Shown here piece by piece: positions 10,601 through 53,920 of a stretch of 64,000 bases of DNA. Source of the stretch: Candidatus Ligilactobacillus excrementigallinarum (GTDB taxonomy: Bacteria > Bacillota > Bacilli > Lactobacillales > Lactobacillaceae). The notes below the pieces were generated by a model. The model made no database searches. It was not told the DNA's origin and saw only the letters and a list, made by a program, of their open reading frames with translations. A program made the translations under genes and the position numbers. Every line of letters begins with the position of its first letter. Within the stretch, counting starts at the first letter, position 1. The stretch covers positions 1 to 64,000 of the forward strand of contig DXFP01000036.1 of NCBI GenBank assembly GCA_019114385.1, given 5' to 3'.

Positions 10601-10768
10601 TAAAGGAGGTTGTGACATAAGTCCAGCCTCTATTTATATATCTGCATAATCGTGTTCCAAAACAAATAGGCATGTCTGTAAATTCAAAAACCTCCGAATC
10701 AATCCTACATAATTCGTTCGTTTTTTCATTACAACATGCCCATTTTTTTGTGTTTTATCGCACTTTAT
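10601..10768 (-). repeat. Dispersed palindromic repeat, copy R3
   Basis: gaggttgtgacataagtccagcctc...ggcatgtctgtaaattcaaaaacctccgaatcaatcctacataattcgttcg. Confidence 0.9.
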
Positions 10769-11016
10769 TTAATTAAAATTTTTAATGCTAATGAAACAAC
10801 TAATACTAAAATAACTGCTCCAATGATTGAAGGAATAATGGCCATTCCTGCAACTACGGGACCCCAGTAACCTAAAATATGTTCTCCCAAAGCAGAACCT
10901 ATTAATCCAGCAACAATATTAGCAATCCAGCTCATTGATCCACCACGGTTAGTCAACCAGCCAGCCACAGCACCAATAATTGCTCCGATTAGTAATGTCC
11001 AAATTAAATGAAGCAT
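10765..11016 (-). CDS. GlsB/YeaQ/YmgE family stress response membrane protein
   Basis: GAIIGAVAGWLTNRGGSMSWIANIVAGLIGSALGEHILG. Confidence 0.88.
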   Translation of the reverse strand: MLHLIWTLLIGAIIGAVAGWLTNRGGSMSWIANIVAGLIGSALGEHILGYWGPVVAGMAIIPSIIGAVILVLVVSLALKILIK

Positions 11017-18494: not shown

Positions 18495-18616
18495 GGTAAC
18501 TGATCTTCTTTCTTTAATATTTTATACCTGAAGTTTAATCTTTCTTAATAATTATAGTCAAATGTATCACTTAAGATAAAAAATATTTATATGACATAAA
18601 TAGCCAAAATAAAAAT

Positions 18617-18775
18617 GAAGGTGTAAAAAAACAAACAGGCATGTTGTAAGAAGAAAACCGAATGAATTACCGTAGTATTAATTCGGAGGTTTTTGAATTT
18701 ACAGACATGCCTGTTTGTTTTGGAACCCGATTATGCGAATATAGAATAGAGGTTGGACTTATGTCACAACCTCTT
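18617..18775 (+). repeat. Dispersed palindromic repeat, copy R6
   Basis: aaacaggcatgttgtaag...ttcggaggtttttgaatttacagacatgcctgtttgttttggaacccgattatgcg...gaggttggacttatgtcacaacctc. Confidence 0.92.
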
Positions 18776-37703: not shown

Positions 37704-38956
37704 TTAATCTATACCATTTTGGACATTTTTATTACTTTGAGTATGTTGACTCATTTGCTTTAATCCGGGAATTAATAACATAACTGCAAAGCTAAGCAAA
37801 TACATAGTCGATAAAAATCCCATAACAACTGAAATTGAATATTTACTCATCAATAAACCGATGATAACAGTTGAAAAGCTGCCGATTGCTTTGCCAATCC
37901 CCATTACTAAGTTATTAGCAGTAGCGGCAATTTCAGTTGGATATAAATAATTCATGATAGCACCATAGCCGCCATACATTCCATTAGCAAAGAATCCAAC
38001 AACGGCTCCAAGTAAGACTAGTTCAAGCATGTTGCGTGCTCGGATTAATGCATAAATGACAAATGCAGAACCAACCAGGAAAAGGCCGAATGATTTGCGT
38101 GGCCCCAAGTGATCTAAGATATTTCCAAAAATCAGCATGCCGATGCACATTCCAACGATTGTGGAAATCATCCAAATAGAAGAAGACCCTTGCACAGTAA
38201 TACCAAGCTGCTTTTGAACAATAGTAGGTAACCAGTTCATCAAGCCATAGTATCCACCAGTTTGGACAACTACCATGAAAATCAATCCTAAAGTTTGAAA
38301 GGCGATTTTAGGTGAACTAGCAAACCGAGTTAAAGAAATCTTAGGTTGATTATTATTTTGATGATTAGCGACAAATGTGGGACTTTCTTTAAGGTGTCGG
38401 CGAATGAAAAATGCCAGAATAACAGGTACGATTCCAACTAAGAATAATACATGTCAACCCCAACGAGGCAAAATGATTGCAGAAAGAATGGCAGCTATAA
38501 TGCCTCCAAGTTGTCCGCCAATTGCGGCAAGTGATGAGATGCGACCATAGTGCTTAGTTGAAAAATACTCAGCAATCAATGCCATCCCAACACCGTACTC
38601 ACCGCCGTTTCCAAGACCAATGATGAAGCGCAGAATATAAATCATAGTGATATTTTTGGCAAAGTACATTAATGCTGTTCCGGCAGCAAAAATAAAAATG
38701 GTATACGAAAATACTTTTACTCGGCCATACTTATCACTAAGAATTCCGAACAGAACACCCCCGAGCAAAACGCCCTAGTGTGTAATTGTATTGATCCAAC
38801 CAGCTTGAATTGTGGAAATTCCTAAACTGGCAATGATTGAAGAAAGGGCGAAAGACATGAAATTAAATCCATGTTTTCAAATGAAAAACCAGTCGCAGTA
38901 GAGGCAATTACACGTTTTTGCGCAGAACTTAGACTGGTCTGAGATGATTTATTCAT
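37704..38956 (-). pseudogene. MFS transporter pseudogene with one frameshift and two in-frame stops
   Basis: ATG 38954-38956 (MNKSSQTSLSSAQKRVIASTATGFSFENMDLIS), frameshift near 38855-38866, TAG 38775-38777, TGA 38454-38456 (RWG*HVLFLVG); downstream pieces share one frame. Confidence 0.88.
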
Positions 38957-43812: not shown

Positions 43813-43843
43813 TTGCCTTCGAGTTAACTCTAAGGAATATAAT
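43813..43843 (+). promoter_or_regulatory. MerR-type promoter, 19-bp spacer (site M1)
   Basis: TTGCCT-TCGAGTTAACTCTAAGGAA-TATAAT with dyad CCTTCGAGTTAACTCTAAGG. Confidence 0.8.
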
Positions 43844-45807: not shown

Positions 45808-46239
45808 ATGAAGACATATAAAATCAGTGAAGTAGCCAAAATTCTTGGCGTTAGTGTACATACACTGCGTTATTGGGATAAAATCGGATTATTAAATTTC
45901 ATTGAACGGGATAAAAACGGAAATCGTGTTTTTAAGCGTGACGATTTTATTTTATTAGATACAATTCTATGTTTAAAGGCCACTGGGATGCACTTACGTG
46001 ATATTAAACATTATGTTGAATTATGTCAAAAAGGAATTTCTAGTGTGCCAGAACGACTGGAAATCATGGAAGGCCAAAAGGATGAGATTGAAAAACAAAT
46101 TGAAGATTTAAAAGACGAATTGTTTGTTGCTGAACAGAAGGTTAAATACTATGAAGAAGCAATTAAATGTAATTCATTGGATGTTTTTCCTGAAGAACGT
46201 GAAAAATGGCTTAATAAGATTTTTGATTTAGATGAATAA
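45808..46239 (+). CDS. MerR family transcriptional regulator
   Basis: MKTYKISEVAKILGVSVHTLRYWDKIGLLNF. Confidence 0.93.
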   Translation: MKTYKISEVAKILGVSVHTLRYWDKIGLLNFIERDKNGNRVFKRDDFILLDTILCLKATGMHLRDIKHYVELCQKGISSVPERLEIMEGQKDEIEKQIEDLKDELFVAEQKVKYYEEAIKCNSLDVFPEEREKWLNKIFDLDE

Positions 46240-46307: not shown

Positions 46308-46338
46308 TTGCATTTGAGTTAACTTTAAGGAGTACACT
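46308..46338 (+). promoter_or_regulatory. MerR-type promoter, 19-bp spacer (site M3)
   Basis: TTGCAT-TTGAGTTAACTTTAAGGAG-TACACT. Confidence 0.75.
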
Positions 46339-46372: not shown

Positions 46373-46831
46373 ATGAGTAAGATTTTATTCATCAATGCAA
46401 GTGAATATGATAATGGAAATACAAGTCGTTTGGGACATGAAATTTTAAACGGATTAGACTATGAATAACTAAATTTAGTAGATTACAAAATTTATCAATT
46501 AGGACAACATTTTGATGATGATCAATTTGAAGAAGTAATCGCAAAAATGCAGGCGGCAGATACCTGGGTAATTTGTACTCCAGTTTACTGGCATAATATG
46601 AGCGGTCATCTTAAAACTTGGTTTGACCGGATGTCAGAATATCCGCATCGTATGTGGTACGGGAAGAAATTAGGATTGGGAGTTCAAGGAATGGAACCGT
46701 CAGATACGATCGAGCCGATGAAACGCCTGATGAAACGCTTTTGCAGCCTCAATCAAATGGATTTTTTAGGCGAAGCAACAACTAATCAGGAAATTAAGGA
46801 ATTGAATTCCAAGTTAAAACAGTTAATTTAA
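46373..46831 (+). pseudogene. NAD(P)H-dependent oxidoreductase/flavodoxin-like gene with one in-frame TAA
   Basis: MSKILFINASEYDNGNTSRLGHEILNGLDYE*LNLVDYKIYQLGQHFDDDQFEEVIAKMQAADTWVICTPVYWHNMSGHLKTWFDR; TAA at 46466-46468. Confidence 0.85.
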
Positions 46832-46858: not shown

Positions 46859-48082
46859 ATGAAAAAACAAATGAAGAAATTTTCAATTTTGGCAATTTCA
46901 TTGATGACTGCTTCAGCACCAGCAATTAATGCGGCGATTCCAATGTTAGCTAAACATTTTAGTAATGTGCCGTTACCAATGGTTGAAATGTTAACAACGA
47001 TTCCATCATTATTTTTAATTGTTTCAATTTTATTTAGTAATTGGATTGCTAAGAAGATTGGATTAAAACAAACAATCATGATTGGGGTTGCATTAATTGT
47101 AGTATCTGCACTTGGTAGTTCATTAGTTAACAATTTTGCTTTTATTTTTGCAATGCGGGCATTGTTAGGACTTGGAGTAGGATTATTTAACTCTTTGTTA
47201 GTAGCTGTTGTTGATTATTTTTATCAAGGCCAAGAGAGAACGCAAACGTTTGGCTTTCAAAGTGCATTTGAAGGATTAGGCGGAATTATTATTACTTTTA
47301 TTGCCGGCCAATTAATGCGAATTAACTGGCAAGCTCCATTTTGGACATATGGATTAGCATTACCAATTTTGCTCTTATTCATGATTTTTGTGCCCAAGAT
47401 TCCTAAAAATCAAACTCAAAATCTAGAGAATGATAGCCAAGAAGTTACAGAAGAACAAACAGAACCTTCAGATATAATCGAAGATAGTGAAGCATCTGCT
47501 AATAAGGCAGAAACTGCTCAACGTCATGGTTATGGACGTTTGGTAGGTTATATGGCATTTATTTTCATTGTTGCAATTTTCTATATGATTATTGGAGTTA
47601 AAGTTTCAGAAGTGATTGTTAATCGTGGATTTGGAACTTCAACGGATGCAAGTTATGTAATTTTGCTTTTAAGTATTGGAGCAACATTGTCAGGTTTCAT
47701 TTTTGGTAATTTAGAAAAACATTTGAAACGCTTAATGATGCCATGCGGATTGACATTACTAGGTTTAGCTTCCATTTTGATTGGTACAGCACATAACAAT
47801 ATTAGTGTTTATATTGCTGGTTTTATTACAGGAATTGGCTTCCGGATGATTTTGCCACATATTATCAATGCAGTTAACCGATTATATCCAGCACAAACTG
47901 CAAGTGTGGCAACTTGCATTTTGGTAAGTTATAACTTAGGAGCTGCAATTTCTCCATATGTTGCTGCTGGGTTAATGAAAATTTCTGCTTTCAATAGTAT
48001 TGGTAATTTATTCATGCTTGGAACAGGATTATATTTATGCATGGCGATAATTGGATTTATTTATAATATTATTACAAGATAA
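46859..48082 (+). CDS. MFS transporter
   Basis: 12-TM MFS pattern: SIPMLAKHF..., LLGLGVGLFNSLLVAVVDYFYQGQERTQTFGFQSAFEGLGG. Confidence 0.9.
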   Translation: MKKQMKKFSILAISLMTASAPAINAAIPMLAKHFSNVPLPMVEMLTTIPSLFLIVSILFSNWIAKKIGLKQTIMIGVALIVVSALGSSLVNNFAFIFAMRALLGLGVGLFNSLLVAVVDYFYQGQERTQTFGFQSAFEGLGGIIITFIAGQLMRINWQAPFWTYGLALPILLLFMIFVPKIPKNQTQNLENDSQEVTEEQTEPSDIIEDSEASANKAETAQRHGYGRLVGYMAFIFIVAIFYMIIGVKVSEVIVNRGFGTSTDASYVILLLSIGATLSGFIFGNLEKHLKRLMMPCGLTLLGLASILIGTAHNNISVYIAGFITGIGFRMILPHIINAVNRLYPAQTASVATCILVSYNLGAAISPYVAAGLMKISAFNSIGNLFMLGTGLYLCMAIIGFIYNIITR

Positions 48083-48101: not shown

Positions 48102-48941
48102 ATGAAAAAGAAATGGAAAGTTCTGACAATCGCCTTATTTATTATCGCAATAATCTGCGGAATAATATTTAGCATTGAAAATTCAAAAGCAAAACAAGAT
48201 TCAAAAAGATTTGCGAATATTACGGTAACTCTTTTCTTTCATGGCTTTGAGAGTAGTTCGCATGCTGAGAAACAGACGGTCAACTCATTGAAAAAACGAG
48301 GAGCAACCAACACTGTAATTAAGGCGAATGTCAGTCGAACAGGGCATGTTTTGCTTACAGGCAAATTACCATCAAAAGTAAAAAATCCGGTTGTCGAAGT
48401 TAACTTTGAAAATAATCGGGAAGCTGATTATTCAATTGATGGAAAGTGGACGAAAAATGTGGTCGTTGCTTTACAGAAAAAATATGGAATGCAGAAAATG
48501 AACATGGTAGGACATTCAATGGAAAATATGGATATTATGTATTATCTACTGGCAAATGCTGATAATAAAAAACTTCCAAGGTTATGTAAGCAAGTTGATA
48601 TTGCAGGACATTTTAACGGAATTTTAGGATACTCCCGAATTAATAATGCGCCAATTAATGCAACCGGAAAACCCATGAAAATGGATCAAGCTTATCGAAA
48701 TTTATTACCATTAAGAAATAAGTATCCGAATAAGCAAGTTAAAGTGTTGAATATTTATGGCAATATTGGCAATGGAACCGATGGGAGGGTATCTAATAAT
48801 TCTTCTAAATCATTAAAATATTTATTAAATGGCCGTGAATTATCATATCAGGAATATGAAATTAAAGGGGTTTCGCATAGTAAATTGCATGAAAGTCGAA
48901 GAGTTGATGATTTATTGGATGAATTTCTTTATGAGGAATAG
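48102..48941 (+). CDS. DUF915-type alpha/beta hydrolase, copy 1 (altered nucleophile elbow GHSME)
   Basis: TLFFHGFESSSHAEKQTVNSL, MVGHSMENMDIMYY, VSHSKLHESRRVDDLL. Confidence 0.87.
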   Translation: MKKKWKVLTIALFIIAIICGIIFSIENSKAKQDSKRFANITVTLFFHGFESSSHAEKQTVNSLKKRGATNTVIKANVSRTGHVLLTGKLPSKVKNPVVEVNFENNREADYSIDGKWTKNVVVALQKKYGMQKMNMVGHSMENMDIMYYLLANADNKKLPRLCKQVDIAGHFNGILGYSRINNAPINATGKPMKMDQAYRNLLPLRNKYPNKQVKVLNIYGNIGNGTDGRVSNNSSKSLKYLLNGRELSYQEYEIKGVSHSKLHESRRVDDLLDEFLYEE

Positions 48942-48957
48942 AATTTGAAAAAATCAT

Positions 48958-48988
48958 TTGCTTTGAAGTTTACTTTAAGTTTTATGAT
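48958..48988 (+). promoter_or_regulatory. MerR-type promoter, 19-bp spacer (site M4)
   Basis: TTGCTT-TGAAGTTTACTTTAAGTTT-TATGAT. Confidence 0.72.
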
Positions 48989-49027
48989 AATAACGAATTA
49001 AAGATCAAGCGAAAGGAATGAATTTTC

Positions 49028-49444
49028 ATGAATATTTCGGCGGTAGGTAAAAAATTTGATTTAACAACTGATACACTGCGCTACTACGAACGTGAAGGAT
49101 TAATCCCGCCAGTTCACCGTAATGAAAGTGGTTATCGTGATTATACTAATTATGATTTAAACTGGATCTACTTTGTCCGGGCAATGAGAAAAGCAGGCGT
49201 TTCAGTTGAATCAATGATTGAATATACAAAGCTGTTCATGCAAGACCGTAAGGGGACTGCTGAAGCCCGCAAAGATATTTTACGCGAAGAAAAGGCGGAG
49301 TTAGAAGCGAAAATTTTTGATTTGCAGCAAACTTTAGATTATTTAAATTATAAAATTGATAATTTTGATGACCATATTCGAAACTTCGAGGATCGGCTTG
49401 ATCCATACATTCAAGATCAATTGAATGAAGAAGATGATAATTAA
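49028..49444 (+). CDS. MerR family transcriptional regulator
   Basis: MNISAVGKKFDLTTDTLRYYEREGLIPPVHRNESGYRDYTNYDLNWIYFVRAMRKAG. Confidence 0.94.
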   Translation: MNISAVGKKFDLTTDTLRYYEREGLIPPVHRNESGYRDYTNYDLNWIYFVRAMRKAGVSVESMIEYTKLFMQDRKGTAEARKDILREEKAELEAKIFDLQQTLDYLNYKIDNFDDHIRNFEDRLDPYIQDQLNEEDDN

Positions 49445-49487
49445 AAATGGAATAAATTGTTATTTTTTAGCATGGAGAGAAATTGAA

Positions 49488-49525
49488 TTTATTTAAATTT
49501 ACTATATAATAGTAAGTAAATTTGG
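49488..49525 (+). promoter_or_regulatory. Promoter with overlapping dyad operator before SDR gene
   Basis: TTGAAT-16-TATAAT; dyad AAATTTACTatataatAGTAAgTAAATTT spans the -10. Confidence 0.55.
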
Positions 49526-49607
49526 TGCGAACCTTTTACTGAAAAGGTTGATTTATCAAAAAGTATATTCTAAAATGAATGAAAATAATATTGGAGATGA
49601 AAGTGTT

Positions 49608-50417
49608 ATGAGTAAGAATTTAGAAAATAAAGTTGCAATCGTAACTGCCGCAAGTCGCGGAATTGGTTTGGCAATTACTAAGAAGTTCGTTGAAGAAGGC
49701 GCCATCGTTTATATGGCAGTGCGTGATAGTGAAAAGAATCGTAAATTAACAGCTGAAATGCATGCTGAAAATCCAAATTATCGATCAGTAATTTACAATG
49801 CTTTTGACTTCGATACTTATGAACCAATGATTCAAGAAGTTGTAAAGGATGCCGGTCACTTGGATATCTTAGTAAATAACTTTGGAACAACAAATGTTAA
49901 GGAAGATACAACTTTAGTTGACGGCAACAGCGAAGCATTCTTTGATATCGTAAATAAGAACTTAGCTAGTGTATATTACACTTCAAAATACGCAGTTAAG
50001 GCAATGAAAGGCCAAGAAAATGGCGGGAACATCATTAATATTTCATCAGTTGCTGGTACAAATCCTGATGTAAGTCGGTTAGCATATGGTGTTTCAAAGG
50101 CAGCCATCAACTCATTGACTCAACAAACAGCAGTTGAATATGCCCGGGACGGTATTCGTGCAAATGCTGTTTTGCCTGGCTTTGTAGGCACAGATGGAGC
50201 AATGCAAAACATGTCACAAAGTTTCTTGGATGGTTTCTTGAAGCATGTGCCATTGGATGAAATCGTTAAGCCGGAAGACATTGCCAATATGGTTGCATTC
50301 TTGGCAAGTGACGAGTCACGCTATGTTACAGGTGAATTGATTCCAGTTGCCGGTGGATTTGGATTGCCAACACCAATTTTTGGCGATGTGATGAGTGGCA
50401 ATACGGAACAAAGATAA
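49608..50417 (+). CDS. SDR family oxidoreductase
   Basis: VAIVTAASRGIGLAI, NNFG, YGVSKAAIN; start 49608. Confidence 0.92.
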   Translation: MSKNLENKVAIVTAASRGIGLAITKKFVEEGAIVYMAVRDSEKNRKLTAEMHAENPNYRSVIYNAFDFDTYEPMIQEVVKDAGHLDILVNNFGTTNVKEDTTLVDGNSEAFFDIVNKNLASVYYTSKYAVKAMKGQENGGNIINISSVAGTNPDVSRLAYGVSKAAINSLTQQTAVEYARDGIRANAVLPGFVGTDGAMQNMSQSFLDGFLKHVPLDEIVKPEDIANMVAFLASDESRYVTGELIPVAGGFGLPTPIFGDVMSGNTEQR

Positions 50418-50532
50418 GGATGTGAGAGCCGTTTCGAGCAACGGTCAATATAGCAACTCGAATGAGCTCAGAAAGTTGCATACTTCTTAACTGCAAAGCA
50501 GTATCACTTACGTACAAAATATTCTAATTAAA

Positions 50533-50697
50533 GGAAGGCGTGACAAAACACCCTAAACAGGCATGTTGTAAGGAAAATCGAACGAATTACGTAGTAAAGA
50601 TTCGGAGGTTTTTGAATTTACAGGCATGCCTGTTTGTTTTAAAAGTTGATTATGCGGATATAGAAATAGAGGTTGGACTTATGTCACAACCTCCTTA
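50533..50697 (+). repeat. Dispersed palindromic repeat, copy R11 (in the 5' leader of the DUF915 gene)
   Basis: aaggcgtgacaaaacaccctaaacaggcatgttgtaaggaaaatcgaacgaattacgtag...gaggttggacttatgtcacaacctcc. Confidence 0.93.
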
Positions 50698-50719
50698 TTT
50701 TATAAAGGAGCAAAACATT

Positions 50720-51559
50720 ATGAAACATAAATTAAAGAGGATTATATTACTGTTAATTGTGATTATTTTAATTTTTGGACTTGTTGTCGGGATGGGTCAA
50801 AATGCAGAACGTCGCCATGAACGAAACCGCTTTGCACACACGACGCCTACACTATTCTTTCATGGATTTGGCAGTAGTTCACATGCTGAAGAACAGATGG
50901 TTAATTCTTTGAAAAGTAAAGGAATCACAAATACAGTAATTAAAGCAAATGTGAATTCAGGCGGACAAGTTTCGCTTTCTGGAAAATTACCGCATAAAAT
51001 CAAGAATCCAGTCGTAGAAGTGAATTTTGAAAATAGTCGAGAAACCAACTATCGTATTGATGGTAAATGGACTAAAAATGTAGTTAAGGCTTTGCAAAAA
51101 CGCTATGGAATGAAAACGATGAACATGGTGGGACATTCCATGGGAAATATGGATATTATGTATTATTTGCTTGCGAATGCTAATGATTCTTCTCTTCCTA
51201 AATTAAAGAAGCAGGTTGATATTGCAGGACATTTTAATGGAATTTTAGGGTATTCTAAGCATCCTGATTCTCCAGTTAATCAAGCGGGAAAACCAGCTGC
51301 CATGGACCAATATTATCGAGAATTGCTGCCGCTAAGAAAAAACTATCCCAATAAGCAAGTTAAGGTATTAAATATTTATGGTAATGTTGGTAATGGCTCT
51401 GATGGACGGGTATCAAACAATTCATCTAAATCGTTGAAATATTTACTTAATGGACTTGAACTTTCTTATGAAGAGCGGGAAATTAAGGGAGTTTCACATA
51501 GTAAATTACATGATAATCGACAAGTTGATGATTTATTGGCTAAATTCATTTATGAATAA
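50720..51559 (+). CDS. DUF915-type alpha/beta hydrolase, copy 2 (canonical GHSMG)
   Basis: MKHKLKRIILLLIVIILIFGLVV..., MVGHSMGNMDIMYY; paralogue of 48102..48941; true ATG 50720 after aaaggagc. Confidence 0.9.
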   Translation: MKHKLKRIILLLIVIILIFGLVVGMGQNAERRHERNRFAHTTPTLFFHGFGSSSHAEEQMVNSLKSKGITNTVIKANVNSGGQVSLSGKLPHKIKNPVVEVNFENSRETNYRIDGKWTKNVVKALQKRYGMKTMNMVGHSMGNMDIMYYLLANANDSSLPKLKKQVDIAGHFNGILGYSKHPDSPVNQAGKPAAMDQYYRELLPLRKNYPNKQVKVLNIYGNVGNGSDGRVSNNSSKSLKYLLNGLELSYEEREIKGVSHSKLHDNRQVDDLLAKFIYE

Positions 51560-51570
51560 AATAAAAACTC

Positions 51571-51601
51571 TTGCCTTGAAGTTGACTCTAGGGAATATTC
51601 T
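51571..51601 (+). promoter_or_regulatory. MerR-type promoter, 19-bp spacer (site M5)
   Basis: TTGCCT-TGAAGTTGACTCTAGGGAA-TATTCT. Confidence 0.72.
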
Positions 51602-51636
51602 AATAGTGCAATAAATTGAAAAGTAAAGTGAAAGAA

Positions 51637-51800
51637 ATGAATATTTCTGCAGTAAGTAAAAAAATTTGATTTAACGCCAGATACGTTGCGTTACTACGAA
51701 CGTGAGGGTTTAATTCCCTCAGTTAATCGGAATGAAAGCGGCTATCGCGATTATATAAATTATGATTTGAATTGGAAGAAAAGATTTTTGATTTAACCTT
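51637..51800 (+). pseudogene. Truncated, frameshifted MerR regulator (paralogue of 49028)
   Basis: MNISAVSKK[frameshift]FDLTPDTLRYYEREGLIPSVNRNESGYRDYINYDLNW then a jump to the ...KKRFLI remnant. Confidence 0.9.
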
Positions 51801-53581: not shown

Positions 53582-53745
53582 AGAAGGTGTGACAAAACTC
53601 AAAAAACAGGTATGTTGTAAAGAAAAAAACGAACGAATTACGTAGGATTGATTCGGAGGTTTTTGAATTTACAGACATGCCTGTTTGTTTTGAAATTCGA
53701 TTATGCGGATATAGAAATAGAGGCTGAACTTATGTCACACCTTCA
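53582..53745 (+). repeat. Dispersed palindromic repeat, copy R12
   Basis: agaaggtgtgacaaaactcaaaaaacaggtatgttgtaaagaaaaaaacgaacgaattacgtaggattgattcggagg...tatgtcacaccttc. Confidence 0.93.
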
Positions 53746-53920
53746 CTTTTTAAAATTTTTTCGTGATTATTAACCTTGGATAGTTACTAGACCAGCAATT
53801 TGAAGCCATCTTTTTCATTTGTTTGCTGAGTTTGATTGAAAAATCGATCTTAAAAGGAATTTCATGACAATTTTGATAATGATGCACAATTGGTTTGAAA
53901 TCTATAAGGGACCACAAGTA

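Follow-up and report, generated by a model that had tools for sequence, protein, structure and literature searches.

Joint duplication of a DUF915 hydrolase gene and its MerR-type regulator gene in Candidatus Ligilactobacillus excrementigallinarum, with recent loss of one regulator and a glutamate in the nucleophile elbow of one hydrolase

Two genes for DUF915 hydrolases, each followed by an operator-like dyad and a MerR-type regulator gene, lie close together in the genome of Candidatus Ligilactobacillus excrementigallinarum. In one of the two enzymes the last glycine of the nucleophile elbow is replaced by a glutamate, and behind the other the regulator gene is broken. Have both units decayed in a complementary manner, as the initial annotation proposed, or is the unusual hydrolase maintained by selection? 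The window analysed here is a stretch of 64,000 nucleotides from an assembly of 1.47 Mb in 67 contigs, the one genome of the species examined; the nearest named hits belong to Limosilactobacillus. All genes between 43.8 and 51.8 kb, from the alcohol dehydrogenase gene to the MerR relic, are on the plus strand, and their order is: alcohol dehydrogenase, SDR oxidoreductase, MerR2, a broken FMN reductase, MFS transporter, hydrolase 1, MerR1, SDR oxidoreductase, repeat, hydrolase 2, and MerR relic.

Features of the duplicated locus (window positions; the dyads are predicted operator-like elements)
Feature	Position	Strand	Remarks
Dyad M1	43818..43834	+	upstream of alcohol dehydrogenase; TTCGAG-19-TATAGT
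MerR2	45808..46239	+	second, distant MerR-type regulator
Dyad at 46313	46313..46329	+	upstream of the FMN reductase-MFS-hydrolase 1 operon
NAD(P)H/FMN reductase-like gene, broken	46373..46831	+	in-frame TAA at 46466-46468, rest of frame open
MFS transporter	46859..48082	+	ends 19 nt upstream of hydrolase 1
Unit 1	48102..49444	+	hydrolase 1, M4, MerR1
Hydrolase 1 (DUF915)	48102..48941	+	279 aa; Ser/Asp/His triad kept; GHSME, HGFESS
Dyad M4	48963..48979	+	upstream of MerR1
MerR1	49028..49444	+	intact MerR-family regulator, without cysteine; PF13411
SDR oxidoreductase	49608..50417	+	between units 1 and 2; own promoter-like site at 49483
Interspersed repeat copy	50534..50700	+	ends in hairpin, immediately 5' of hydrolase 2
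Unit 2	50720..51794	+	hydrolase 2, M5, MerR relic
Hydrolase 2 (DUF915)	50720..51559	+	279 aa; canonical GHSMG, HGFGSS
Dyad M5	51576..51592	+	upstream of relic; intact though its own MerR is dead
MerR relic	51637..51794	+	ATG 51637; A7 frameshift 51658-51664; 139-nt deletion; 3' end lost

The two units had been described as a tandem. Two copies are indeed present, but they do not stand head to tail, as an SDR gene and a repeat intervene; this SDR gene is single. The repeat element of about 165 nt, found in the window at 50534-50700, 53583-53751, 18613-18773 (+) and 10603-10779 (-), occurs in at least 40 copies in the 1.47-Mb genome (134 candidates at first look); it is 83-92% identical, starts with GAAGGTGTGACAAAAC and ends with GGTTGGACTTATGTCACAACCTCTTTTT. 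As RNA, the element is predicted to fold strongly (-53.4 kcal/mol, z -6.0). An Rfam search of the window gave zero matches, the repeat element included; its appearance is that of a mobile hairpin or of an element resembling a terminator. Elsewhere in the window, a stop divides an MFS transporter gene on the minus strand (37704-38768), leaving two open frames.

Both hydrolases match the DUF915 profile PF06028 (E values of 5e-70 and 5e-73 for hydrolases 1 and 2, respectively), with scores of 236 and 246 bits against a gathering cut-off of 22. Their AlphaFold2 models have a mean pLDDT of 93-94 and a TM-score of about 0.93 to PDB 3fle (on target). The G-x-S-x-G elbow as well as the Asp and His residues are complete in unit 2, whereas unit 1 is without the last glycine, its Ser, Asp and His being present. 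By its sequence, hydrolase 1 is certainly a DUF915 homologue despite the failed catalytic motif.

The sequences of the two hydrolases are 70% identical, and the proteins are sisters with a support of 100/100 in a tree of 43 rows, with end branches of 0.24 for hydrolase 1 and 0.25 for hydrolase 2. The closest other relative of the window hydrolases among 61 genomes searched is 52% identical, and in 401 genomes of the family no relative exceeded about 55% identity. The homology between the units begins at the start codon of the hydrolase and continues via the operator into the MerR gene. Moreover, dS is 1.33 for the hydrolase pair and 1.31 for MerR1 and the relic (44 comparable codons), and these equal values indicate one duplication event for both genes. 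Judged from the sister relationship and the equal dS, the hydrolase and MerR genes were copied together as one unit, in agreement with the initial annotation, which was also right in its coordinates and in the elbow motifs (GHSME and GHSMG, encoded with GAA and GGA, respectively). One might argue that units 1 and 2 entered the genome independently from an external source and that no duplication took place in it, since dS is high (1.3) and the pair is absent from every other genome searched. The support of 100/100 for the two sisters among 43 rows, the low identity of the next relative (about 52-55%) and the shared gene order and operator of both units make this history very improbable. Gene conversion around the elbow was also considered and rejected: the longest run of identical codons is 7, a length reached in 1486 of 5000 shuffles, and there is thus no tract.

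Synteny offered little guidance to the ancestral position: in the relatives fetched, the neighbours in the window are not found beside related hydrolases, with the exception of distant SDRs and of one locus (L094), at which an alcohol dehydrogenase and a MerR gene lie 9-11 kb from the related hydrolase gene. In two genomes of another genus (L187, 1076-2340; L196, 1074-2334), a related DUF915 hydrolase gene is immediately preceded by a different MerR gene; nearby are genes for an MFS protein and for a carboxymuconolactone decarboxylase-like protein. This suggests that the pairing with this particular MerR is specific for the lineage whereas the theme is not.

MerR1 scores above the cut-offs for PF13411, PF00376 and PF09278 and matches PDB 3gp4 with an E value of 1e-34; it belongs to the MerR family. 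In the relic, the A-run has seven residues as compared to six in MerR1, resulting in a TGA after codon 10 (product MNISAVSKKI*). In addition, an internal deletion, located between repeats D4 and D17, lowers the offset to unit 1 from 2610 to 2471, so that DLNW is now followed by ELEEKIFDL. The junction, of the GAATTGGA type (51769-51776), falls on a short direct repeat. Jointly, the +1 and -139 changes bring the frame back, with ELEEKIFDL in the ATG frame, but the early TGA still stops translation. Beyond about position 51794, homology to MerR1 was not confidently found. Comparison with the intact paralogue thus bears out the earlier view that the MerR of unit 2 is dead. The surviving codons differ from those of MerR1 by 19 synonymous and 5 non-synonymous changes (dN/dS 0.04), and this predominance of synonymous differences suggests that the regulator died recently, long after the duplication. 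In the DNA-binding domains, 5 of 44 residues differ, and the loss may be due to redundancy with MerR1. The co-duplicated and then lost regulator points to an order of events in which both pairs would have been kept for long before one redundant regulator was dropped.

In the literature on alpha/beta hydrolases, the nucleophile elbow is described as a tight turn. The change in the elbow of hydrolase 1 (E141, codon 48522-48524) corresponds to a single transition, GAA as compared to GGA in unit 2. The residue at this Nu+2 position is glycine in 194 of 195 distinct DUF915 sequences from the same family and order, the exception being the protein of unit 1; in a smaller earlier set, it was glycine in 110 of 111 DUF915 sequences. 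The glutamate is therefore derived, and an ancestral glutamate, with which the reading of the initial annotation would have been at odds, is excluded by this count. The turn of the elbow normally needs small residues, but a bulkier side chain at Nu+2 might be accepted in certain alpha/beta hydrolases. Hydrolysis by hydrolase 1 is probably abolished or strongly reduced. A second glycine-to-glutamate change in hydrolase 1 affects the oxyanion loop (E50, HGFGSS to HGFESS). This position is occupied by glycine in 126 of the 195 DUF915 sequences and by other residues in the rest; because of this wide variation in the family, the change was ruled out as a second proof of inactivity. Likewise, the confidence of the AlphaFold2 models, being nearly the same for the two proteins, is uninformative as a gauge of the effect of the glutamate. 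A narrow literature search revealed no description of this duplicated locus or of the variant.

Is hydrolase 1 decaying? The pairwise dN/dS of the two hydrolases is 0.165. Under a shared clock, neutral evolution of unit 1 since the duplication was rejected (LRT 146-166 with four outgroup pairs), and the omegas of the two hydrolases were equal in three of the four outgroup pairs (p 0.03 for the fourth); in this fit, the synonymous lengths are saturated, and the omegas should therefore not be taken at face value. Clock-free branch dN/dS did not reject neutrality of unit 1 (LRT 1.8-2.3), as the outgroups are too saturated for power, and this approach was dropped. Hydrolase 1 departs from the strong family consensus at 8 sites and hydrolase 2 at 4 sites, a difference that is not significant. 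The constraint argues that selection has maintained the hydrolase 1 gene over most of the period after the duplication. The measured constraint averages this whole time, and the glutamate change may be much younger. The decay that had been ascribed to hydrolase 1 is not supported, given its end branch, the dN/dS value and the rejection of neutrality under the shared clock. The complementarity of the losses is not established either, as the loss of the regulator is recent and explained by redundancy and as the glutamate change may be functional.

The 1.47-Mb genome contains four exact matches to the pattern TTNRAGTTNACTYTARG, all within 8 kb (43.8-51.6 kb), all on the plus strand, and each preceding a gene start by about 30-50 nt, i. 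e. that of the alcohol dehydrogenase, the FMN reductase-MFS-hydrolase 1 operon, MerR1 and the relic. These four sites served to define the pattern, and the finding is therefore limited to the statement that nothing else in the genome resembles these four. There were no matches in 100 shuffles of the window and no exact matches for the reversed pattern; if one mismatch was allowed, one further place was found, the reverse reading of the first site aside, and the control then gave 11. M1, M4 and M5 can be read with a promoter spacer of 19 bp, M4 also with one of 17 bp (MerR type: 19-20 bp), and M4 and M5 stand as the predicted operator-like dyads that had been noted initially. Upstream of hydrolase 2, there is no such site and the repeat element is found instead. 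The site at 46313 thus places hydrolase 1 in an operon behind a candidate operator, unlike hydrolase 2. MerR1 is the obvious candidate to bind the four dyads and may regulate all four predicted operators in trans. The FMN reductase gene of the hydrolase 1 operon is broken, and this operon may therefore be decaying. The new parts of this work are the glycine-to-glutamate change and the predicted four-site local regulon.

Taken together, we favour a history of joint duplication and recent MerR loss, with hydrolase 1 maintained under MerR control, probably catalytically impaired, beside a canonical hydrolase 2, and we give it a slightly better than even chance of being correct. According to this proposal, a two-gene unit encoding a DUF915 alpha/beta hydrolase with a membrane anchor and, behind it, a MerR-type regulator that controls its own gene would have been duplicated once in the lineage, and selection would have kept the hydrolases and regulators of both units during most of the period that followed. 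The loss of the second regulator, by slippage and deletion, would be a recent event; the DNA-binding domain of MerR1, nearly identical to that of the relic, could serve the same four operators, and M5 would be a leftover. Hydrolase 1, at the end of an operon with the FMN reductase and the MFS transporter behind an operator of the local regulon, would have acquired the glutamate two residues after the nucleophile serine while keeping its fold, membrane anchor and triad. Most likely, it would have been retained as a stress-regulated partner of hydrolase 2, either non-hydrolytic or altered in function; hydrolase 2 itself has the canonical site and would be outside the MerR regulon. The loss of catalysis and this function of hydrolase 1 are inferred, as is the regulation in trans by MerR1.

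Three other accounts of hydrolase 1 have to be considered. The glutamate at 48523 may have arisen only very recently, be private to this strain or reflect an error of sequencing, the enzyme being active otherwise, and would then be devoid of functional meaning. It results from a single GGA to GAA transition in the one genome of the species, and past constraint is silent on when the change arose; the second glycine-to-glutamate change in the oxyanion loop speaks against an accident of this kind, despite the variability of the loop position among family members, and we regard this account as unlikely. Hydrolase 1 might also have remained active in spite of the glutamate and have changed its substrate preference under MerR control. 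Its intact triad, its confident model with the common fold and a constraint equal to that of hydrolase 2 would be in keeping with such neofunctionalisation, which is nevertheless rather unlikely given that the Nu+2 glycine is present in all other DUF915 sequences examined, even in paralogues that lack the nucleophile. Finally, as in the complementary decay of the initial annotation, both units may be dying, with one keeping the enzyme and the other the regulator by chance. One MerR gene is dead, other genes in the window are broken (the FMN reductase and the MFS transporter at 37704-38768), and hydrolase 1 has the larger number of consensus departures, an excess without significance; but hydrolase 1 is not truncated, its rate of evolution does not exceed that of hydrolase 2, and it is under strong overall purifying selection, which makes joint decay quite improbable.

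A parallel case is found in the Limosilactobacillus mucosae lineage. L. mucosae DSM 13345 and Lactobacillus sp. MRS-253-APC-2B have a nucleophile-less DUF915 copy 1.9 kb upstream of an intact copy (L006, 5273-6082; L007, 5104-5913). In the degenerate copy, GHSMG has become GIGTG and HGYGSS has become HDRTGS, so that the His and Ser of the elbow are lost and the glycine is kept. Between the two loci, dN/dS is 0.165 for the degenerate and 0.102 for the intact copy. The degenerate copy groups with its own intact copy rather than with those of the window, indicating an independent duplication. As in the window, a site-degenerate DUF915 protein lies near an intact copy and appears to be kept by selection; the neighbours are YitT-, DUF1836- and DegV-like genes but no MerR gene, which the window has. 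By these sequences, a site-degenerate DUF915 protein can be retained by selection, and the interpretation of hydrolase 1 as a pseudoenzyme is thus reasonable. It is tempting, if doubtful, to speculate that pairs of a DUF915 enzyme and a pseudoenzyme arise repeatedly in lactobacilli (with the present locus and that of the L. mucosae lineage as a minimum of two cases), that the non-catalytic protein is kept to serve its active sister as a sensor, a scaffold or an allosteric partner, and that here it belongs to a four-operator MerR regulon with its active sister outside.

With the solved PF06028 structures, i. e. SE_1780 (PDB 3fle), lin2722 (3ds8) and the L. plantarum protein 3lp5, the window hydrolases share the full-length profile, the fold and the Ser/Asp/His positions, whereas the glutamate at Nu+2 sets the hydrolase of unit 1 apart from the 194 other DUF915 sequences compared. 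In spite of these three structures, the function of DUF915 is not known (PMC11878206), and the variant of unit 1 beside its canonical sister offers a direct test of the hydrolase role. The regulatory part of the locus resembles the NmlR/AdhR-type MerR regulons. NmlR is the best NCBIfam match of MerR1 (NF041849); its score of 127 bits is below the cut-off of 175. The NmlR clade has an invariant sensing cysteine, Cys52/54 (PMC4776306). MerR1 was ruled out as a true NmlR as it has no cysteine and scores below the cut-off, and the lack of cysteine implies that sensing through the thiol chemistry of this clade is not open to it. The window hydrolases are not EstD of the Haemophilus influenzae adhC-estD locus. 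A further AdhR-type regulon used for comparison is adhA of Bacillus subtilis. Regulons of this type have dyad operators in their promoters, and the locus described here has operator-like dyads in candidate promoters; in adhC-estD an alcohol dehydrogenase and a hydrolase are encoded nearby, just as in the window.
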